Of a stretch of 24,393 nt of DNA, positions 6,320-24,271 are shown one piece after another. The position numbers and the translations under genes are program-made. Below the pieces are notes generated by a model, which made no database searches, was not told where the DNA came from, and worked only from the letters and a program-made list of their open reading frames with translations. The stretch's first letter is position 1. Every line of letters begins with the position of its first letter. Source of the DNA: a virus; IMG/VR virus record IMGVR_UViG_3300033153_002341, positions 1 to 24,393 of that record. One strand, 5' to 3'.

Positions 6320-6358
6320 GAATGTCTCCCCCTTTAAATGGGGGGGGAGCATTCTTTT
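6320..6358 (+). terminator. Strong intrinsic terminator after the capsid gene
   Basis: GAATG-T-CTCCCCC (6320-6332) pairs with GGGGGAG-CATTC (6343-6354), with a single bulged T on the left arm and a short A/T loop extended by extra Gs, followed by TTTT (6355-6358). The GC-rich stem plus T-run is a clear rho-independent terminator. It separates the capsid transcript from the connector genes and probably acts as a partial attenuator, since no clear promoter is visible before 6389. Confidence 0.85.
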
Positions 6359-6388
6359 ATTAATGACATTTTGAAGGAGAAATTAACC

Positions 6389-6880
6389 ATGGAAGAACAG
6401 ATCGTAAAGATTTTCAATAAAGGGAAAAGAATGATCGATGATATTAATCCCGATGACGTCGTTGAGGTTCCTTTGAGCAGAGCAGAAAAGCTTAAGAAGC
6501 TATTCAGCGCAGAGATCATCATTGTAGCAGAGGGGCAAGATCCTCACGTAGCTGCAAACAATGATTCTGCTCAGTGTGCTGCGTTAAAAAAAGAAGTTGT
6601 GGCACTTAATGAAAAGATTGAAGATTTGCAGAAGTCGGACAACTCGGAAGTTGTTGATAATCTTCAGAAAGAAATAGCGACTCTTCAGAAGGAGATTGAG
6701 GATCTCAAGAAAGAAGAAGAAGGAAGGGATGAATCTGAAGAACTTGAAACGCTCAAGGCAGACATCGAGCCTCTTAAAGCCGCACTTTCTGAAAAAGAAG
6801 ACGAATGCGGAAAACTTGTTAAGGAACTCGACAAGGCAAAAAAAGAGCTCGCAAAGAAGAAATCAGGCAATAAAAAATAA
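6389..6880 (+). CDS. Coiled-coil protein of unknown function in the head module
   Basis: 163 residues from ATG 6389, which has GAAGGAGA (6373-6380) 8 nt upstream. An ATG 51 bases earlier (6338) lies inside the terminator hairpin and is rejected. The N-terminal 50 residues (VKIFNKGKRMIDDINPDDVV and following) may form a small folded domain. Residues about 60-160 are a long Lys/Glu/Leu heptad pattern (LQKEIATLQKEIEDLKKEEE) predicted to be a coiled coil, with a very basic end. No family is recognised. Its place between capsid and connector suggests a virion or assembly role, perhaps a head fibre or internal protein, but nothing in the sequence decides this. Confidence 0.72.
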   Translation: MEEQIVKIFNKGKRMIDDINPDDVVEVPLSRAEKLKKLFSAEIIIVAEGQDPHVAANNDSAQCAALKKEVVALNEKIEDLQKSDNSEVVDNLQKEIATLQKEIEDLKKEEEGRDESEELETLKADIEPLKAALSEKEDECGKLVKELDKAKKELAKKKSGNKK

Positions 6881-15527: not shown

Positions 15528-17360
15528 ATGGCAAACGAAATAGACGAGAGTGGCATAAACATCGAGACACTTGCAGAGACGATCGATGCAATTATAAACG
15601 GGACGGTTGATGTCCCAGGACTTAAGGATATATACGGCGATGATATCAGTGTGGATTCAGACACTCCGGATGGACAGCTTGTCAATATTTACGCTCTGGC
15701 AAAACAAGACATCCTGAATCTTATTGTCCAAAGCTATAACTCCAAAGATCCTGACCAGGCGGTCGGCGTAGCCCTTGATGCTGTATGCGAACTATGCGGA
15801 ATATTTAGGAGAGAGGGAACAAGGACTCTTGTTTCTGTAACGGTAGTCACGGACAGGAGCCTTACTCTTGACGGACTTGATACGTCCGATACTCCCTACA
15901 CTGTCTCTGATGCAACCGGTAATGAGTTCGAGCTGATAGCAACAAGCAACCTAACAGCCGGGGATAACATCCTAGCATTTCAGGCCAAAGAAATCGGATC
16001 GATAGAAGTTCTCGCAAACATAATAACCGTAGCTGTGACAATCGTACTCGGTGTTCTTTCTCTTAATAACCCTGCAGCTGCAACCACAGTAGGTATTGAT
16101 GAAGAGACAGACGCAGAGTTAAGAATACGAAGACAGGCAAGTATAGCAGTCCCTTCGCAGGGATATTTGCAAAACCTTCTTGCCGGCATTTTGACCGTTG
16201 TTGGAGTAACATCGGTACAAGTTATTGAAAACGACACATCAACAGGAGAAACAGCTAGACACACAATGACGGCTGTCGGAACTGCTCAACTTGATACTGC
16301 TCAAAAGGTTTTTGGAACCGCTTCCTTATTGCTTGATGGTAATAGTGATTCTGTAACTACTCCTGATTCTGATGACTGGCATTTTGGAACAGAAGATTTT
16401 ACCATTGACAGAAGAGTTCGATTCGCAAGTTTAACAGGAATACAAATCATTGCAGGGCAATACGTTGACGGTACCCATTACTGGTTCGTCCAAAAAGACG
16501 CAGCGCACAAGCTCCACCTAAAGTTCGTTGACGGAACAGCCAAAGGTGATTATATCATGACATCTGCTTGGGCAGGCGTTGCAATTGATACATGGTATCA
16601 TGTGGAATTTGCTAGAAGTGGAGCAGAAGCTTTTATTTTTATTGATGGTATTTCCCAAACTTTAACAGAAACAACAGCCTTCAGCACAAACGACGTCGGA
16701 AACTTGGCGGCAATTCTCACCATTGGAGCACAGAATAGCACAGGGTATTTTAATGGATGGATGGACGAAGGAAGGATAGTTAAGGGCATAGCCATGCATA
16801 ATTCAGATTTCACACCGCCGACTCTTCCTTATAGCGGTTCAGGAAAAACAAGACTCCTTCTGCATTATGATGGAATTGATACATCAACAACAATACTAGA
16901 TACCTCCGACGGACAACCTGCACATTCAATCTGGGTTATTGTTCAGGGAGGGACAGACGCAGAAGTTGCGGAAGTTATATATAATTACAGAAACGCAGGG
17001 TGCGGAATGAAAGGGGACACGGCGGTAAATATTACGCAAGCTGATAGTTCAATTTTTGAGATTCGATTCGACAGGCCAGTAGCCCAAGACTTATATATTG
17101 ATATGGTTTTAGAGGCAAAAAATGCTGGAACAATTGATACAGATTATGTTAAAGAACAAATTGTCGCAAGATATATTTTAGGAGTCAATGAGGTCGCGGA
17201 CTCTTCAGCTGTTTGTGCAATAATTGCGGATATTGATGAAAATTTAGTTGCCTCTGAAATAACTGTATCTGATGATGGGGCTGTAGATGTGGCATTATTA
17301 GAAACAAGCGCAGAAGATAAATATTTTTCAAATGATACGTCAAGGATAACGATAACATGA
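15528..17360 (+). CDS. Baseplate J-like wedge (Mu gp47) with inserted LamG-type domain
   Basis: 610 residues, longer than a typical gp47/J protein. Residues 1-241 and 459-610 form the J family: IYGDDISVDSDTPDGQLVNI, EETDAELRIRRQASIAVPSQ, then QPAHSIWVIVQGGTDAEVAE, YRNAGCGMKGDTAVNITQ and FDRPVAQDLYIDMVL. Residues about 242-458 are a LamG/concanavalin-like module: VFGTASLLLDGNSDSVTTPD, DWHFGTEDFTIDRRVRFASL, TWYHVEFARSGAEAFIFIDG and YFNGWMDEGRIVKGIAMHN. The module interrupts the J domain at the point where the family normally reads NDT...GxPAHS. It would place a sugar-binding fold on the outer wedge. The gene overlaps the next by ATGA. Confidence 0.88.
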   Translation: MANEIDESGINIETLAETIDAIINGTVDVPGLKDIYGDDISVDSDTPDGQLVNIYALAKQDILNLIVQSYNSKDPDQAVGVALDAVCELCGIFRREGTRTLVSVTVVTDRSLTLDGLDTSDTPYTVSDATGNEFELIATSNLTAGDNILAFQAKEIGSIEVLANIITVAVTIVLGVLSLNNPAAATTVGIDEETDAELRIRRQASIAVPSQGYLQNLLAGILTVVGVTSVQVIENDTSTGETARHTMTAVGTAQLDTAQKVFGTASLLLDGNSDSVTTPDSDDWHFGTEDFTIDRRVRFASLTGIQIIAGQYVDGTHYWFVQKDAAHKLHLKFVDGTAKGDYIMTSAWAGVAIDTWYHVEFARSGAEAFIFIDGISQTLTETTAFSTNDVGNLAAILTIGAQNSTGYFNGWMDEGRIVKGIAMHNSDFTPPTLPYSGSGKTRLLLHYDGIDTSTTILDTSDGQPAHSIWVIVQGGTDAEVAEVIYNYRNAGCGMKGDTAVNITQADSSIFEIRFDRPVAQDLYIDMVLEAKNAGTIDTDYVKEQIVARYILGVNEVADSSAVCAIIADIDENLVASEITVSDDGAVDVALLETSAEDKYFSNDTSRITIT

Positions 17361-17965
17361 TAGATCCGGAAATCTTAAAATATTACGCCGATCTCTTAAT
17401 CGTTCAATATAATAACCTAGCCAAAGCCAGGGGGAACGTCGAGCTTATGGTCAATCAGGCCACATGTGACGGATTAGCCCAAGATGAAAATTTATCTTTT
17501 ACTTTGGCAGATGCAATCGGAGCACAGCTTGACATATTAGGTAGGATCGTAGGAGTACCCAGAAACGTCCAGGGTCTTATCATTGGAAGGACTTATTATA
17601 ATTTTACGACCTATTTGTCCCCAGCGAGCAACGGGTTCGCGTCTTATGCCGATGCCGTTTATCCTTCTGATATTTTATGGCTGAGATATTCTGATATTAC
17701 AAACGCTTCGTATACACTTTTAGATTCAGAGATGAGAACTTTAATTGCTTTAAAGATAGCATTAAATACAAGAAATTCAAGCACAAAAGATATAAATGAT
17801 ATATTATGGGAATTTTTTGGATCAGACGTCGAGTTTATTGATAACCAAGACATGACAATCACGTACAACATATCGACAGACATCCAGCAAGTAATGGAGA
17901 TCGCTGTATTTTTAGAATTTTTACCAAAACCAATGGGAGTTTCAAAAACTGTAAATTATGTCTAA
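17357..17965 (+). CDS. Baseplate protein, Mu gp48 / DUF2612-like
   Basis: 202 residues, start on the overlapping ATGA. LADAIGAQLDILGRIVGVPR at about residues 54-73 and LLDSEMRTLIALKIALNTRN further on are typical of DUF2612, with STKDINDILWEFFGSDVEF and FLPKPMGVSKTVNYV closing the protein. Such proteins are the last wedge subunit and attach the fibres. It lies between the J wedge and the fibre gene, which fits that role. Confidence 0.82.
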   Translation: MIDPEILKYYADLLIVQYNNLAKARGNVELMVNQATCDGLAQDENLSFTLADAIGAQLDILGRIVGVPRNVQGLIIGRTYYNFTTYLSPASNGFASYADAVYPSDILWLRYSDITNASYTLLDSEMRTLIALKIALNTRNSSTKDINDILWEFFGSDVEFIDNQDMTITYNISTDIQQVMEIAVFLEFLPKPMGVSKTVNYV

Positions 17966-17976
17966 GGAGATAAAAA

Positions 17977-18909
17977 ATGTCTAAACTGACAAGAGTTTTG
18001 CAAAAACAATTTGGGATAAATGGGGTATCAACAGATTTCGGAAAATTCGGATCATTAGCTGCAGGCTCTGCTGCAACAACAAAGGATCCTGCTCTTATTC
18101 AGTCTTTGGCTGAATTTGAATTAGGATGGGATGATGGTGTTATTGCAACAAATAGGCCGGCAATGGAGGATCGCAACGGCCTAGATTTACTAATGTTTAG
18201 ACAGCTTGCTTACATCTTCCAAGAGGGCTTATGCGAGTATGATTCCTCGACGGAATACCATCAATTCTCAGTAGTTAAGAAAACAGGGACATATGAGCTA
18301 TACGGATCAATAATAAACACAAACACAGGTAACGCTTTGCCTTCTCAGGTGGATGACGCAAACTGGAAATATCTCGGAACGTTAGAGAATCTAGTACAAT
18401 CAAGATATATGGTAGGCCAAGAGGTTTCTCTTGATTACGAACCGAGTGCCGGGGATTTGACAGACAACAGGATACTCCACTCAGATGGGTCGGCCATATC
18501 CAGGACAACATATGCGGATCTATTCGCCAAAGTTGGTGTTATCCATGGTCAAGGAGACGGGGCGACAACTTTTAACCTCCCTGACAAAAGAGGACAAGTC
18601 TCTCGCGGCTGGGACGACGGCGCAGGAGTTGATCCGGATGCTGGAAGTCGAACTGCTGATGCCACGGGGGGTGTGACGGGAGATGAAGTTGGATCCGTTC
18701 AAAATGATGAACTTAAGAACCATGATCATCCAGTAGTGTTTCCTTCTACCGGAAGTACAGGATTAGGTACTTTTGAAGAAGGTGCAACCGCTCCAAATTA
18801 TGAAATGCCCTCTGGAAATTCTGGTACATATTCAGGAGATACAGGAGAATCAGGCGGAAATGAAACAAGACCGAAAAACAAATATGTTTGGATCGGGATA
18901 GCTTATTAA
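17977..18909 (+). CDS. Tail fibre with C-terminal collar domain
   Basis: 310 residues, ATG after AAGGAG. The N-terminal half (DFGKFGSLAAGSAATTKDPA, SLAEFELGWDDGVIATN, CEYDSSTEYHQFSVVKK) resembles the baseplate-binding part of phage fibres, including a small beta module around NALPSQVDDANWKYLG. Residues about 160-310 are a tail collar domain: RILHSDGSAISRTTYADLFA, GATTFNLPDKRGQVSRGWDD, LKNHDHPVVF and the final PKNKYVWIGIAY. It is probably the receptor-binding short fibre. A second, more distant collar-like domain occurs at the end of the spike. Confidence 0.8.
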   Translation: MSKLTRVLQKQFGINGVSTDFGKFGSLAAGSAATTKDPALIQSLAEFELGWDDGVIATNRPAMEDRNGLDLLMFRQLAYIFQEGLCEYDSSTEYHQFSVVKKTGTYELYGSIINTNTGNALPSQVDDANWKYLGTLENLVQSRYMVGQEVSLDYEPSAGDLTDNRILHSDGSAISRTTYADLFAKVGVIHGQGDGATTFNLPDKRGQVSRGWDDGAGVDPDAGSRTADATGGVTGDEVGSVQNDELKNHDHPVVFPSTGSTGLGTFEEGATAPNYEMPSGNSGTYSGDTGESGGNETRPKNKYVWIGIAY

Positions 18910-18923
18910 GGAAAGGTTTAATT

Positions 18924-19289
18924 ATGGATCGATGTACTTATGATATTTGTATTAAGCAAGGTGCTAATTTTTATCAGCAATTTTATATTGTTGATGAAGT
19001 GGATGGTGTGGAAGTTCCAACAGATTTAACGGATTATACTGTTGAAATGCAAATAAGAAGAACGGTAGAAAACTCAACGATCTTTGCAACTTATTCCACT
19101 GCTAATGGATTGATAACTCTCGATGAGTCTAATGGAATTATTACGATTAATGTTCCAGCTGCAACAACCGCAGCATATCAATATGATTTCGAGGGAGTTT
19201 ATGATATAGAAATTACTGCTCCTATTACTGGGTTTGTGGAAAGGGTTCTTCAAGGTAAGTTGATCGTTGACGGAGAGGTAACGCGATGA
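18924..19289 (+). CDS. Small tail-associated beta-sandwich protein
   Basis: 121 residues. ATG 18924 has AAGGAAAGG (18908-18916) 7 nt upstream, so the in-frame ATG at 18888, which overlaps the fibre gene, is rejected. The sequence DICIKQGANFYQQFYIVDEV, TDYTVEMQIRRTVENSTIFA and YQYDFEGVYDIEITAPITGF looks like the beta-sandwich proteins that follow fibre genes in many phages, similar in layout to baseplate upper proteins (BppU-like). No enzyme motif is seen. It overlaps the next gene by ATGA. Confidence 0.68.
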   Translation: MDRCTYDICIKQGANFYQQFYIVDEVDGVEVPTDLTDYTVEMQIRRTVENSTIFATYSTANGLITLDESNGIITINVPAATTAAYQYDFEGVYDIEITAPITGFVERVLQGKLIVDGEVTR

Positions 19290-19594
19290 GTATAAAAATT
19301 ATTAAATCGTGTAATAGGCCTGTTAAAATTGTTAGGACAACAGGCATTATTAAAATTGTATCAACGAAACAAACATCGGCTATTTTTGTTCCTTTTTCGT
19401 TCACTGCAACTGATGGACAAACAGTATTTCCTTTGCCCTCTGCTGCAAAATCAGGAGGGCTTTTTATGGTATCAATTAACGGCGCGCCTCAAGACCAAGA
19501 GGGTGGAGATTACACCGTATCAGGTGTTACTCTAACTTTCGATGAAGGACTTGATACAAACGACAAGGTATATGGAGCTTATGAACAAGCATAA
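19286..19594 (+). CDS. Small fibre-like protein
   Basis: 102 residues, ATGA overlap with the previous gene. The last 65 residues (FSFTATDGQTVFPLPSAAKS, GLFMVSINGAPQDQEGGDYT, LTFDEGLDTNDKVYGAYEQA) form a small beta module found in many phage tail proteins. The first 30 residues are basic. It overlaps the next gene by 14 nt. It is probably a tail tip or fibre-associated subunit, on context only. Confidence 0.62.
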   Translation: MSIKIIKSCNRPVKIVRTTGIIKIVSTKQTSAIFVPFSFTATDGQTVFPLPSAAKSGGLFMVSINGAPQDQEGGDYTVSGVTLTFDEGLDTNDKVYGAYEQA

Positions 19595-22370
19595 AATAAT
19601 TCAATTCACATTAATATTTTTATTAATCCCCGTTATTTGTTTTGCTCGGACTAAAACTCCCTCAAAAGATGTAACTGTATCGGATGCAGGAGGATATTTT
19701 TCATCCACTGACGTTGAAGGTGTTCTCCAAGAAATAGGAGCAGGCGCAGGAACAGGCCAATCAAATACAGCTTCGAATACCGGATCAGTTGGAGTTGGTC
19801 TTTCTAAACAAAAGACGGGTGTTGACCTTGAGTTCTATAAAATATTTTCTGAAAACAATATATTGACAGCAATTTTATCGGGTACAGATTATTTTTCATT
19901 GACAGTTAATGAAGGAAATATTAGCCATGATGCAATAGCCGATGTCTCCGCAGAAGATCATCAAGATTTAGTAACGGTAGACGTAAACGCAGACACTCTT
20001 CTTAGTCTTACAAATCAAGAGCTAGGATTAGACACTCAATTAGCAAATAAAGTCTTTGCCGGCCCCGCAGCAGGAGGAGCAGCAATCCCATCCTTTCGGG
20101 ATATTGTAGATAATGACATCCCTGATACAATAACAGTCTCAAATTATGTGAGAAAAAGTATGTGGACAGATCATGATAATTATCCTGATGCGTGTTCTGC
20201 CGGACAAGCAGTGACAGGACTAGGTGATACTTTAGCTTGTGCTACGTTCTGGGACGCATTAACGGATATGACCTTGGCAGATGGGTCTATCTATATAGGT
20301 GACGTGAGTAATAATCCTGTGGCTCAAGTAATGACAGGAGATATTACAATAACCAATGGGGGTGTCACATCAATAGGTGTAGATAAAATAAAGGATACTA
20401 TGCCCGATTGGGGCACAGGAGCAGGGCAGATAGATTCTGATGATATACCAGACCATAATAGCCATTCCGTTAGGGATACTTTTGTACACATAATTAATAG
20501 AGGAAAGGCCGAAGCCATAACAATAACTTTAACGGGTGGCTTAGGTATTAGTTGGACAACCGGAGAAATTTACGATGAAACAACAAATTCTTTTATAGCA
20601 ACAGAAGCAGGGAGTGGGAATTTAACAAATACAGCAGAAAATTATTTAAAATGGGTGTCGGGTACAACATTAACTATATCCACAACATCAACTAGTGGGG
20701 ATGAGATTCTTATTTCTCCATTTTCAGTTTATGATGGAAATATAAACGGGTATAGAGAAACAACTCTAATGGATGCAACGCAAGCCAATACTCGTCGGGG
20801 ATTAAGAGCAATATACCCTACTTTTATTGATAGTGGAATGAGCGTACATGAGGATACAGATGTTACAAATGCTTTAGATGTAACAATGGATGCAGGCGTA
20901 TTTTGGAAAGATGCGATTGAGAAAAAAACACCCGTCGAAATTAAGTCACGGACAACTGCTATGGTAAGGAATTTTCATACAGCTAGTGTTTGGGATAGTG
21001 ATACAAACGCACAGATTGAAACAACCAATTACGACAATGGGACGGGTTTAACAGCAATACCAGCTAATAAATATGTCAAAGCTAAGTTCATTTTTATGAA
21101 TGGTAAAATTGGATTTGTTTATCCTCGTGCTTATTTTAATAATGTTGCAGATGCTCTTGACGCAGCGTTACCAGCAAGTCCACTCGGATTAGCTTCCGTG
21201 CCAGTTTTAACAGGAGTTGTTTACAAGCAAGGAGCTGCCAATTTTACAGCAGCAGTTTGGACTGATGAAAGGGTAGGTATAGCAGAGGGTACAGGCGGAT
21301 TAGTAACTGACCATGACCAGTTAGGAAGTCTTGCATGGACAATTTCAAAACATACAAGTACAGCGTTAGCGATTGCAGGATTTGATGGCGCAGGAGCAGC
21401 GTCAGAATATACGACGACAGGTTCAGGGACAGTTTTAGCTTTGGCGACTTCTCCGACTTTGGTGACTCCGGCATTAGGCACTCCGGCATCAGGTGTAATG
21501 ACTAATGTTACGGGTACAGCATCGGGGTTGACGGCAGGAGCGGTAACAAACGCAACGCTTACAACAGCCCTTACAGTAAATACAGGGACGCTTGAACTTA
21601 AAGGTAACGCAGCAAATAACTCTGTTCTGACGGTTGGAGCAGGGGCGGTGTCAGTTTCAGGGGCTAATACGGGGGATAACACAGTAGCCACTTCAGGAGA
21701 TGCGGCCGTTGACTTTTTTGGAGCAGGTGTAAGTGCGGTAACAGATGCTACGGCTTGCACAGAGATAGAAGGGAATTTACTTACTATTGATACAGCAGTA
21801 CTTAAAGTAAGCGGAACAAAAGCTAACTTAGAAACTGCTATAAGTGATGTAGCAGATTTTGCAGAGGCAGACGGTGATGCGTATACGGGGGTGCATAATT
21901 TTAGCGGAGCAACATCTTTAGAAATACCGCAAAACAAAACAGCTTCAACGAGTGGACATATAACTACAGATGACACGAGTGGACAGTTTAGATATGGGGC
22001 TAATGATGTTCAGAGGGTTTTAAGTCCTTTATATTCACCTTCTGCCATATTAGAAAATGTTGCAGCAGCAGATGATGGTGTGCCTTTAGGAAGTAAAAAG
22101 TATGCTAGGACGATAACACAAGTGGGGTGTAGGTGTATTGGTACTTGCACAACAAAAGCAGAGTTTTCATTTTCTGATTCAGCCGCCAATGCTTTTACGT
22201 TAGCAGCAACTCCTACTTGTGCGACAACGGGAGCAATAACTTATCAAAATGTAACAAATGGTGGAGCTTTAGTAGCAGGAGAGGGGATGTTATTTAATGT
22301 TACCAATGCAGTAAGTCCAGAAACTGATTGGTACGAAATTGTGTGGACGGAAACAATAACCGCAGATTAA
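19581..22370 (+). CDS. Long tail-fibre-like protein with a Sec signal peptide
   Basis: 929 residues from ATG 19581. It starts with a Lys/His n-region, the hydrophobic run IIQFTLIFLLIPVICFA and a likely cleavage before RTKTP, a Sec-type signal peptide that is unexpected in a virion fibre. Upstream ATGs at 19542 and 19572 would add residues that spoil the signal. The rest is fibre-like: SDAGGYFSSTDVEGVLQEIG, AEDHQDLVTVDVN, TQANTRRGLRAIYPTFIDSG and DVTMDAGVFWKDAIEKK in the middle, Gly/Thr/Ala repeats such as LVTPALGTPASGVMTN at about residues 630-720, and a C-terminal Cys-containing beta domain (VGCRCIGTCTTKAEFSFSD). The binding site is weak and close. Its role in adsorption is inferred. Confidence 0.75.
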   Translation: MNKHKIIQFTLIFLLIPVICFARTKTPSKDVTVSDAGGYFSSTDVEGVLQEIGAGAGTGQSNTASNTGSVGVGLSKQKTGVDLEFYKIFSENNILTAILSGTDYFSLTVNEGNISHDAIADVSAEDHQDLVTVDVNADTLLSLTNQELGLDTQLANKVFAGPAAGGAAIPSFRDIVDNDIPDTITVSNYVRKSMWTDHDNYPDACSAGQAVTGLGDTLACATFWDALTDMTLADGSIYIGDVSNNPVAQVMTGDITITNGGVTSIGVDKIKDTMPDWGTGAGQIDSDDIPDHNSHSVRDTFVHIINRGKAEAITITLTGGLGISWTTGEIYDETTNSFIATEAGSGNLTNTAENYLKWVSGTTLTISTTSTSGDEILISPFSVYDGNINGYRETTLMDATQANTRRGLRAIYPTFIDSGMSVHEDTDVTNALDVTMDAGVFWKDAIEKKTPVEIKSRTTAMVRNFHTASVWDSDTNAQIETTNYDNGTGLTAIPANKYVKAKFIFMNGKIGFVYPRAYFNNVADALDAALPASPLGLASVPVLTGVVYKQGAANFTAAVWTDERVGIAEGTGGLVTDHDQLGSLAWTISKHTSTALAIAGFDGAGAASEYTTTGSGTVLALATSPTLVTPALGTPASGVMTNVTGTASGLTAGAVTNATLTTALTVNTGTLELKGNAANNSVLTVGAGAVSVSGANTGDNTVATSGDAAVDFFGAGVSAVTDATACTEIEGNLLTIDTAVLKVSGTKANLETAISDVADFAEADGDAYTGVHNFSGATSLEIPQNKTASTSGHITTDDTSGQFRYGANDVQRVLSPLYSPSAILENVAAADDGVPLGSKKYARTITQVGCRCIGTCTTKAEFSFSDSAANAFTLAATPTCATTGAITYQNVTNGGALVAGEGMLFNVTNAVSPETDWYEIVWTETITAD

Positions 22371-22380
22371 AGGAGCAGAC

Positions 22381-22890
22381 ATGAAAAGATTAGGATTAGT
22401 ATTAGCAATTATGATGATTACAGGAGTGGCGCAGGCTAAAATTATTGGTGAAGTAATTGGTCAAGAGTTAACAGAAGATAAATTTATTAAAATAAGTACA
22501 AAATTTATTGATGACAAAGATACTACTGATAAAACAGACGATGAACAAGTGGGAACAATAGATTATAGACTTTGGAATCCTTTAAGATTTGAAAATAAAA
22601 CATCAAAAGAAATAATTGATATAGTTAAGAACGACTTGGAAAAAAAGATAAAAGGAAATACTATTTATCAATATATGAAAAATAAAGGAGGTAACCCTTT
22701 AACTTTATTAAGAAAAGAAAAAGCACAAAATATTTTTGAGGGTTTATCTAAAATTAGTATTAAACTTGAACAAATTAATTTAAAAACCAAGATGGATATA
22801 GACGGAGACGGTTATTGTGAAGAAGAATGGACTATTAAACCTAACGGTACTGAGTCTAGGGTTTCTATTACTCCTGGTTCCTGCGACTAA
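22381..22890 (+). CDS. Secreted protein of unknown function
   Basis: 169 residues, ATG after AAAGGAG. The first 19 residues, MKRLGLVLAIMMITGVAQA, form a clear Sec signal with an A-x-A type site. The mature part is hydrophilic and Lys-rich: VIGQELTEDKFIKISTKFID, SKEIIDIVKNDLEKKIKG, and near the end DIDGDGYCEEEWTIKPNGTE, a calcium-loop-like Asp pattern. No family is recognised. It follows the long fibre after 10 nt and its last 74 nt overlap the next gene in another frame. It is more A/T-rich than the baseplate genes. Confidence 0.65.
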   Translation: MKRLGLVLAIMMITGVAQAKIIGEVIGQELTEDKFIKISTKFIDDKDTTDKTDDEQVGTIDYRLWNPLRFENKTSKEIIDIVKNDLEKKIKGNTIYQYMKNKGGNPLTLLRKEKAQNIFEGLSKISIKLEQINLKTKMDIDGDGYCEEEWTIKPNGTESRVSITPGSCD

Positions 22891-23512
22891 TTCAGCAATA
22901 GTAGAAGACGCTCACGGTACTGCAAATGCTTCAACAGCTTCTGTTACAGTTGCAGATAATAGTAATAGAATTTTAGTTGCTACGTGGGCAGCAGGTAACT
23001 GGAATGATTCAAATGCTTGTACTTATAATAGTGTAAGTATGACTATTGATGCAGAACAGCAATCTAGCTATGACGATTTTGGGGTTTCTTCTCTGGTTGC
23101 ACCTGATACTGGTACGCATACTTTAGCCTGTGGGGATACTAGTGAAGAAAATGGAATAACTTGGGTAGTAGTTTATAATGCTGAACAGTCAAACGCAGAA
23201 GGAATTAATACTTGTTATATATCTGCAGGAGGTTCTTTTACTTGTACTCCTGTGACTGTTTCGAGTGGCAGTATGCTAGTTGGAGGATATAAACATGACA
23301 GAGATTCAGGGGCGAGTGTTGCAGCTGGCGCAGGTCTAACTATTTTATCGTCAGGAGAGGCTACTTCACATAGTGCTTATGGGATAGGGGCAACTGTTTT
23401 TTCAATGAGTGGAATTTCTAGTAATGGTCCGAAGAGACAAGCTGCTGCTTCCTATAAAGAAGCAGGAGCACCACCAGCAGGCCGAACCCGAAGGATGTTT
23501 GTATCACAATGA
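22817..23512 (+). CDS. Secreted beta-rich protein with an overlapping signal peptide
   Basis: 231 residues from GTG 22817, with GGAG (22804-22807) 9 nt upstream and a stop in the same frame at 22799, so this is the only reasonable start. The first residues (KKNGLLNLTVLSLGFLLLLV, then PATNSA) give a strong signal peptide although they are read out of frame with the previous gene. The mature part, ADNSNRILVATWAAGNWNDS, LVAPDTGTHTLACGDTSEEN, CYISAGGSFTCTPVTVSSGS, is a beta-sandwich domain like those in phage and bacterial surface proteins. The C-terminus ends in a basic PPAGRTRRMFVSQ. Function is unknown; attachment or surface roles are possible. Confidence 0.6.
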   Translation: MKKNGLLNLTVLSLGFLLLLVPATNSAIVEDAHGTANASTASVTVADNSNRILVATWAAGNWNDSNACTYNSVSMTIDAEQQSSYDDFGVSSLVAPDTGTHTLACGDTSEENGITWVVVYNAEQSNAEGINTCYISAGGSFTCTPVTVSSGSMLVGGYKHDRDSGASVAAGAGLTILSSGEATSHSAYGIGATVFSMSGISSNGPKRQAAASYKEAGAPPAGRTRRMFVSQ

Positions 23513-23622
23513 TAATCACCTGCCCTTCATGCGGAGTACAAGGCGAATACGAAGAGGGACATAGTTGCTGGATTTGCAGAGCGTGCGGAAAATTAATAAT
23601 CGAAACTAACAAAGGAAAATGA
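23509..23622 (+). CDS. Small 37-aa zinc ribbon protein
   Basis: ATG 23509 overlaps the previous stop as ATGA. The product has MIITCPSCG near the start and GHSCWICRACGKLI later, giving Cys5, Cys8, Cys20, Cys23 and Cys26, enough for one zinc site. Such small ribbons are common among phage and bacterial accessory genes and often bind nucleic acid or protein, but nothing here shows a partner. Confidence 0.6.
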   Translation: MIITCPSCGVQGEYEEGHSCWICRACGKLIIETNKGK

Positions 23623-23624
23623 CC

Positions 23625-23651
23625 ATGGCGAGTAAAGGTTCATTATGCTAA
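23625..23651 (+). pseudogene. Remnant 5' end of a small basic gene, split by the HNH gene
   Basis: ATG 23625 has an excellent site (AAAGGA 23611-23616, 8 nt away) but encodes only MASKGSLC before TAA 23649-23651. The gene after the HNH starts MSNVKGSC and goes on for 33 residues. The shared KGS-C pattern suggests the short ORF is the old start of that gene, cut off by the insertion. The reading is inferred, and a chance short ORF remains possible. Confidence 0.35.
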
Positions 23652-24271
23652 AAATATGTAAATATTGTAATAAAGAATTTAATGTCGCTCCTTGTAAAAT
23701 AAAAGTTGGTAAAGGTAAATATTGTTCAATGAAATGTCGTAGCTTAGACAATAGTGTAGAAATTATTTGTAAAAAATGCGGAAAAGCTTTTCGTGTTTCA
23801 AGGACAAGATATAAAAACGGAAGAGGGGCTTTTTGTTCAAAACAATGTCAATATACATGGCTTTCTAAACAAAAAAATGTACTTTGTGATTATTGTGGTA
23901 AAAGTTTTATGGCTAAAATGAGTGAATTAAAAAGAAATAAAAATCATTATTGTTCACGAGAATGTTGTAAAAAAACATTGAAAGGAAAATGTGTTGGTGA
24001 AAAAGCCTCGGGTTGGAAAGGCGGAAAACAAAGAGAAAGACATAACGGAAATTATAAATATTCTGATTGGAGATTAAAAATATATGAAAGGGACAATTTT
24101 ACTTGTCAATCTTGTGGCCAAAAAGGTGGAAAATTAAATGCTCATCACCAGTTTATGTGGTCAGAATATCCTTCATTAAGATATGAATTATGGAATGGCA
24201 TAACTTTGTGTGAAGAATGTCATAAACAAGAACATAAAAAAATAAGAAAGGATACAAAATGTCTAATGTAA
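23645..24271 (+). CDS. HNH endonuclease with three tandem zinc knuckles
   Basis: 208 residues, ATG after AAAGG (23634-23638). Residues 5-107 hold three knuckles with the same spacing, CxxC, 18 residues, CxxxC: Cys5/8/27/31, Cys42/45/64/68 and Cys81/84/103/107, probably for DNA recognition. Residues 142-200 are an HNH nuclease: WRLKIYERDNFTCQSCG, His167-His168 in NAHHQFMW, Asn184 in NGITLC, and CEECHKQEH with Cys189/192, His193 and His197. It looks intact. Free-standing HNH genes in phages often act as homing enzymes. Its A/T-rich codon use differs from the head and tail genes, a sign of transfer. Confidence 0.88.
   Translation: MLKICKYCNKEFNVAPCKIKVGKGKYCSMKCRSLDNSVEIICKKCGKAFRVSRTRYKNGRGAFCSKQCQYTWLSKQKNVLCDYCGKSFMAKMSELKRNKNHYCSRECCKKTLKGKCVGEKASGWKGGKQRERHNGNYKYSDWRLKIYERDNFTCQSCGQKGGKLNAHHQFMWSEYPSLRYELWNGITLCEECHKQEHKKIRKDTKCLM

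Follow-up and report, generated by a model that had tools for sequence, protein, structure and literature searches.

A tail-fibre locus with three consecutive genes for proteins with predicted export signals is present in IMGVR_UViG_3300033153_002341, a virus record of 24,393 bases. The record, referred to as a whole as the window, is a genome fragment related to Bdellovibrio phage phi1422. The three products are a fibre pre-protein of 929 amino acids (aa) and two companions of 169 and 231 aa, and each begins with an N-terminal signal of the Sec/signal peptidase I (SPase I) type. The occurrence of fibres with sequence-predicted export signals is confirmed and extends well beyond the window, which suggests that some tailed phages may send fibres out of the host cytoplasm. 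In the explanation favoured here, at a probability of roughly 45%, the fibres would undergo maturation in the periplasm and be fitted to virions at lysis via non-exported adaptors, with the two small proteins as exported accessories.

Export signals of the three window proteins

Signals were scored with a home-made log-odds scorer of the n-, h- and c-regions, which uses hand-set weights and returns relative scores, not calibrated probabilities. Ten of 11 known signals from laboratory strains and coliphages scored 12.7-23.6, and FhuA was missed at 0.8. On this scale the fibre reaches 14.5, the 169-aa protein 17.9 and the 231-aa protein 19.8. All 24 window genes upstream of the three score at most 1.2, and the HNH gene downstream scores -13.2. 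Shuffled N-terminal residues matched the observed score 4 times per 5000 for the fibre and 0 times per 5000 for either companion. According to the same scorer, all three have the Sec/SPase I hallmarks, namely a charged n-region, a hydrophobic core and small residues at positions -3 and -1.

The fibre starts at ATG 19581 and reads MNKHKIIQFTLIFLLIPVICFA up to the predicted cleavage, followed by RTKTPSKDV; a second in-frame ATG lies 9 bases upstream and has little effect on the signal call. The 169-aa protein reads MKRLGLVLAIMMITGVAQA and continues after cleavage with KIIG. In the 231-aa protein, MKKNGLLNLTVLSLGFLLLLVPA precedes TNSAIVED, with an alternative cleavage after TNSA. The sole usable start of its gene is GTG 22817, with GGAG 9 bases upstream, and the signal is encoded in the final 74 bases of the 169-aa gene, read in a different frame. 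This signal is the least certain of the three because of the GTG start, its location within another gene and the lack of a confirming homologue.

An earlier note on this DNA had placed three consecutive Sec-signal proteins in a tail-fibre locus at 19581-23512 and proposed signal prediction on all of them. With the home-made scorer all three came out high, and the claim holds, positions included. The sequences give good support to the fibre and both companions as cleaved Sec/SPase I substrates, and from this we infer their export. The puzzle that the note saw in exported fibres is a real one.

Recurrence in phi1422-like phages

Fibre loci of relatives, designated by L-numbers, were retrieved via the baseplate J gene. 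The tally covered open reading frames (ORFs) of at least 250 aa in 45 members of the group, with a score of at least 13 taken as a signal. Signal-bearing ORFs numbered 0 of 134 up to the J gene versus 11 of 121 beyond it. The same fibre slot holds a signal-bearing protein in L135, L168, L170, L173 and L157, as well as in cultured phi1422.

L135, the nearest relative, encodes a fibre homologue (51% across the first 120 aa) whose signal is different yet just as good. Two more signal genes follow, of 303 aa (weaker, 10.8) and 507 aa (21.2), making three in a row. L168 encodes a third fibre homologue and four other signal-bearing proteins (224, 315, 811 and 131 aa). The homologous fibres of the window, L135 and L168 all retain a signal although its sequence diverges, and cleavage is predicted at the same position relative to [RV]TKTP[SA]KD. 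The fibre region of phi1422 encodes gp68 and gp75 with strong signals (20.8 and 22.3), and L170, from a prophage in a Bdellovibrio metagenome-assembled genome (MAG), has a gp68 homologue. L173, from a prophage in a Terriglobia MAG, and L157 show a similar fibre N-terminus after their signals, that of L173 being scored from a start 39 codons further in.

All ORFs of at least 400 aa that lie after the collar fibre and within 9 kb of the J gene bear a signal in the window, L135, L157, L168, L170 and phi1422, and L173 behaved likewise in a later tally. The exported protein therefore seems to stand in for the large fibre. Within the group, the signal-bearing fibre is scattered, not universal. Apparent signals at the collar-fibre N-termini of L139, L149, L150 and L156 were false, a product of badly chosen start codons, and no further carriers were found among 369 genomes of the phylum of the Bdellovibrio MAG.

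Several other signal-bearing genes of the group were recorded. The 811-aa protein of L168 (L168:5626-8058, minus strand) combines its signal with a CBM96 domain, a weak beta-helix match and 30 cysteines. In phi1422-like L029 (11555-15676), a pair of genes right after the portal, away from the fibre locus, encodes signal-bearing proteins (249 and 1114 aa) that resemble tail fibres or decoration proteins. The more distant relatives L097 (13873-14355) and L133 (13213-13695) encode near-identical 160-aa proteins with the top signal score of the set (24.4), in which no fibre kinship was seen.

Placement of signals ahead of fibre-type N-termini

A module of the window fibre (21687-21998) is common to 11 loci of other uncultured phages. 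Nine of the 12 module-bearing fibres score at least 13, L179 scores 12.5, and L178 and L186 have no signal. This count is only partly independent, as seven of these fibres were already in the probe alignment, having been picked up through similarity to the window fibre rather than through signals. At several of the loci, additional signal genes adjoin the fibre.

Overall, the predicted cleavage sites lie 0-12 residues ahead of fibre N-terminal motifs, which are of three types; two of these are also seen in fibres that lack a signal. In L002, L004 and L005, cleavage is predicted 0-1 residues ahead of the motif DTKxSxL...D.L..VD. The same motif begins 1-2 residues past the initiator methionine in the signal-free fibres of L178 and phi1422 (gp67), and a Methylophilales phage protein that lacks the preceding segment matches it from residue 3. 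In the window, L191 and L194, cleavage lies 11-12 residues ahead of DAGxYYxSTxVEGALQEI, which stands near the signal-free N-terminus in L198 and L203. In L173 and L157, a motif of a third type lies 8-11 residues past the cleavage site, and no signal-free copy of it was found. The window fibre itself shows both tail-fibre features tested, a fibre-type N-terminal motif and location in a fibre locus.

Since signals precede fibre-type N-termini in several phage lineages, the placement argues against both an origin as captured host genes and an uncleaved structural helix. That the hydrophobic N-termini have nothing to do with export, being either products of chance or segments that virion fibres retain uncleaved for structure or membrane contact, is the least probable of the alternatives considered. 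In favour of such a reading, the scorer is hand-made and the cleavage a predicted one. However, charge, hydrophobic core and an AxA-type site coincide in unrelated proteins, the distance from cleavage to motif is nearly constant (0-1 and 11-12 residues), shuffles seldom match the score, and homologues keep the signal while its sequence changes.

L004 contains seven signal-bearing genes within 8 kb (L004:3479-11328). One of them has a LamG domain, and from residue 26, just past the signal, another matches the virion structural protein family PHROG_1645.

The two companions

No relatives of the 169-aa and 231-aa proteins were found in IMG/VR or among cultured phages. Neither belongs to a Pfam family. 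The sole PHROG match of the 169-aa protein is weak and leads to a family of unknown function (E 0.024), and the 231-aa protein matches no PHROG family. A single-sequence AlphaFold model of the mature 231-aa protein was unusable (predicted local distance difference test score 33). The companions of the window, L135 and L168 do not match one another, and only the fibre N-terminus is common to the three loci. Because the companion genes are not conserved, a fixed three-gene system is not supported. The undescribed system for which the earlier note had proposed this group as candidate finds no backing: none of the signal-bearing genes in neighbouring phages is related to its two companions. As to the co-occurrence with the fibre gene that the note had proposed to look for, signal-bearing companions of some kind recur, but the same gene families do not.

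The exported proteins might instead act in lysis or attack envelope polymers from within, as periplasmic enzymes or spanin-like helpers. In many relatives, lipoprotein-like and lysis-type genes with signals do lie a few kb downstream, and the CBM96 domain and weak beta-helix match of the L168 protein would suit such a function. Searches of Pfam, PHROG and the PDB detected no enzyme domain in the window proteins, however, and the fibre-type N-termini also speak against a role in lysis, which is very unlikely.

A possible periplasmic route for the fibres

The signals, their recurrence in the same slot of related phages and their position just before fibre-type N-termini are directly visible in the sequences. 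A route consistent with them would begin with export of the three pre-proteins by host Sec and cleavage by signal peptidase I. The 929-aa protein, as the large distal tail fibre, would fold and trimerise in the periplasm, with disulphides where its cysteines permit, and would meet the cytoplasm-made particles only when lysis mixes the compartments. Docking would then involve the collar fibre and the 102-aa and 121-aa proteins, none of which has a signal. The 169-aa and 231-aa proteins would be exported accessories, perhaps binding proteins. Somewhat more tentatively, the carriers may represent a scattered class of tailed phages whose receptor-binding fibres are Sec-exported, folded and oxidised in the periplasm, so that the virion is completed outside the cytoplasm at lysis.

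A fibre matured in the periplasm and docked at lysis is favoured because the exported protein replaces the large fibre, its gene overlaps that of the 102-aa protein, and homologues of the latter are restricted to relatives with the same fibre. The stop of the 102-aa gene overlaps the start of the fibre gene, and the fibre gene of L135 shows the same overlap. When the downstream genes of the group were searched, 102-aa homologues were found only in L135 (46%) and L168 (38%), both with the exported fibre type. The 102-aa protein is thus a possible docking adaptor. A frameshift fusion of this gene with the fibre was rejected, as the signal would end up inside the protein. Homologues of the 121-aa protein occur in L135 and L168, and some relatives that lack this fibre encode more distant ones. 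By eye, the N-terminus of the L135 adaptor (LTIKQKVASI) resembles that of the signal-free 1363-aa fibre of L175 (LAIKQTKVASI), a likeness that BLAST did not report and that would fit a fibre split into an adaptor and an exported part. Late joining is in principle feasible, since fibreless particles of phage T4 can receive their fibres in extracts.

Cysteine content gives a further hint of an oxidising compartment. Mature exported proteins of phi1422 contain 13.4 cysteines per 1000 versus 5.5 in its structural proteins (p 0.017). Within the group, even counts occur in 14 of 16 cysteine-bearing exported proteins versus 17 of 35 structural ones; this parity is only a hint, because the test was devised after seeing the counts and some of the proteins are related.

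Several observations weigh against fibres that are exported and docked at lysis. To our knowledge, tailed-phage particles are completed in the cytoplasm, and no precedent was found for an exported fibre that docks at lysis. Cultured members of the group from Iodobacter, Pectobacterium, Vibrio and Aeromonas have no signal-bearing fibre (the last two genomes were partly scanned). In L138, where the signal is weaker (12.3), large signal-free ORFs stand beside the signal-bearing protein. The cysteine excess of exported over structural proteins is not significant in the window (10.3 versus 6.1 per 1000, p 0.08), and other phage types show no marked preference for even counts (13 of 22).

The exported proteins could also be free receptor-binding proteins that block receptors in the periplasm or lysate, providing superinfection exclusion or keeping progeny from being trapped on debris. 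They are soluble, bear signals and lack an anchor; glycan-binding folds occur among the companions in relatives (LamG in L004, CBM96 in L168), and several phages encode many such proteins. Nevertheless, fibre N-terminal motifs, replacement in the large-fibre slot and overlap with a tail-fibre-like gene would not be expected of a free blocker, and large multi-module fibres are costly for that purpose. We regard this alternative as rather unlikely. The earlier note had left three options, namely proteins sent to the host envelope, a host surface change such as exclusion, and fibres assembled outside the cell. The fibre-motif mature N-termini, the large-fibre slot and the overlap with the tail-fibre-like gene lean towards the last of these.

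Comparison with known systems

Among the phiPLPE-like dwarf myoviruses, phi1422 shares with the window a colinear set of portal-to-baseplate genes and signal-bearing proteins in the fibre region. Its gp68 is unlike the window fibre in that the two are not homologous by BLAST. The phi1422 paper makes no mention of signal peptides (PMC3391216), and no description of Sec-signal tail fibres was found in the open-access literature searched. Phage proteins of diversity-generating retroelements are stated to lack signal peptides (PMC6199706).

The usual assumption is that tailed phages produce and attach their fibres in the cytoplasm. Ordinary examples (phi1422 gp67, L178, L198) have N-terminal motifs and shaft modules in common with the signal-bearing fibres but are signal-free and stay cytoplasmic until assembly. 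Virion proteins made as Sec pre-proteins are known from filamentous phages, whose coat proteins assemble into virions in the inner membrane, whereas tailed-phage particles form in the cytoplasm.

The MAT fibres of Bdellovibrio bacteriovorus (PMC10769870) resemble the phage proteins in being long and modular and having a signal peptide, and the shaft repeat of Bd2133 is also found in the L168 fibre. They differ as bacterial chromosomal adhesins with a conserved beta-rich N-terminal domain of about 130 aa after the signal. Two Bdellovibrio-MAG proteins were taken as MATs by their S74 domain and signal; in BLASTP of the phage signal-bearing proteins against them, the N-terminal domain was not matched, matches starting only from residue 213 on. 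Searches of the PDB with the window fibre returned chance-level matches only, with none to the MAT shaft repeat. The phage proteins are fibre-like and are not classed as MATs here; an exchange of modules with MATs is possible.

This likeness raises the alternative that the exported proteins are surface adhesins of infected cells or lysogens and would benefit the host or hold infected cells together. Bdellovibrio has 21 exported phage-fibre-like adhesins (PMC10769870), the L168 fibre and Bd2133 share the shaft repeat at E 7e-6, and one of the carriers resides as a prophage in a Bdellovibrio MAG. Yet no phage protein matches the N-terminal region of the two Bdellovibrio S74 fibres, phi1422 is described as lytic (PMC3391216), and no surface anchor was seen in the window proteins. 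A surface adhesin is therefore unlikely.

Were some fibres to be exported beforehand, host range could hinge on folding factors of the periplasm and disulphides could be present in fibres; the completion of virions would then extend into lysis. As a cultured phage with a similar arrangement, phi1422 makes this directly testable. Even if the fibres never join virions, recurrent exported fibre-like phage proteins point to an envelope function of which no description was found in the open-access literature searched.

Hosts of the carriers

Phage phi1422 infects Bdellovibrio. L170 lies on a contig of a Bdellovibrio MAG with bacterial genes on both flanks, as judged by eye. On contig G032:C12 of Bdellovibrio sp. 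UBA4095, about 96000-138000 (L170, L211 and L212), there is an apparent integrated phi1422-like prophage with an integrase-like fragment on one side, also seen by eye. L173 is within a 216-kb contig of a Terriglobia MAG. Ca. Dependentiae was not accepted as host of L168, as the bin concerned (G033) measures 2.4 Mb versus 0.7-1.7 Mb for the others listed; this is probably a mixed bin. Hosts of the L004- and L008-type phages were looked for and not found.

Gene layout of the window

From the portal gene (231) to the gene for a DUF2612-type baseplate protein (end 17965), 20 of 21 genes have a colinear phi1422 homologue at 23-56% identity, the gene at 6338-6880 being the only one without. Phage phi1422 is a member of the phiPLPE-like dwarf myoviruses (PMC3391216). 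By conserved gene order, the virus, known here from a 24-kb genome fragment, is assigned to the phi1422-like (phiPLPE group) myoviruses. The baseplate protein at 17357-17965 gave no matches when used as a probe. The collar-domain fibre, the 121-aa protein and the 102-aa tail-fibre-like protein come after the baseplate genes, followed by the three signal-bearing genes (Table 1). The collar fibre, whose N-terminus is common to L135, L157, L168 and the phi1422 gene at 43436-44149, is likely a proximal fibre made in the cytoplasm.

Table 1. Features of the tail-fibre locus of the window.
Feature	Position	Strand	Remarks
Collar-domain tail fibre	17977..18909	+	Pfam Collar 1e-11; PHROG tail collar fibre; signal score -4.9
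121-aa protein, signal-free	18924..19289	+	PHROG_1084; weaker match to L-shaped tail fibre assembly family
102-aa tail-fibre-like protein, signal-free	19286..19594	+	PHROG_2710 tail fibre 6e-8
929-aa fibre pre-protein	19581..22370	+	Signal score 14.5; modules common to signal-bearing fibres of other phages
Predicted signal peptide of the fibre	19581..19646	+	Cleavage after residue 22
Mature N-terminal region of the fibre	19647..19949	+	Fibre motif DAGGYFSSTDVEGVLQEI, 12 residues past predicted cleavage
Shared fibre module DFAEADGD..TGVH.F.GAT.LEIP	21687..21998	+	Common to fibres of other phages
169-aa companion, predicted exported	22381..22890	+	Signal 22381-22437, score 17.9
231-aa companion, predicted exported, GTG start	22817..23512	+	Signal 22817-22885, score 19.8; overlaps 169-aa gene by 74 bases

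In the baseplate J protein (15528-17360), a LamG (concanavalin-like) domain at about residues 270-418 interrupts the match to the phi1422 homologue; it is a sugar-binding-type insertion in a baseplate wedge protein. Just past the fibre locus, the HNH endonuclease gene (23645-24271) encodes several cysteine-rich zinc-finger-like repeats and is likely a mobile element. A short ORF (23510-23623) begins at the stop of the 231-aa gene and by eye resembles a small zinc-ribbon protein with two CxxC pairs.

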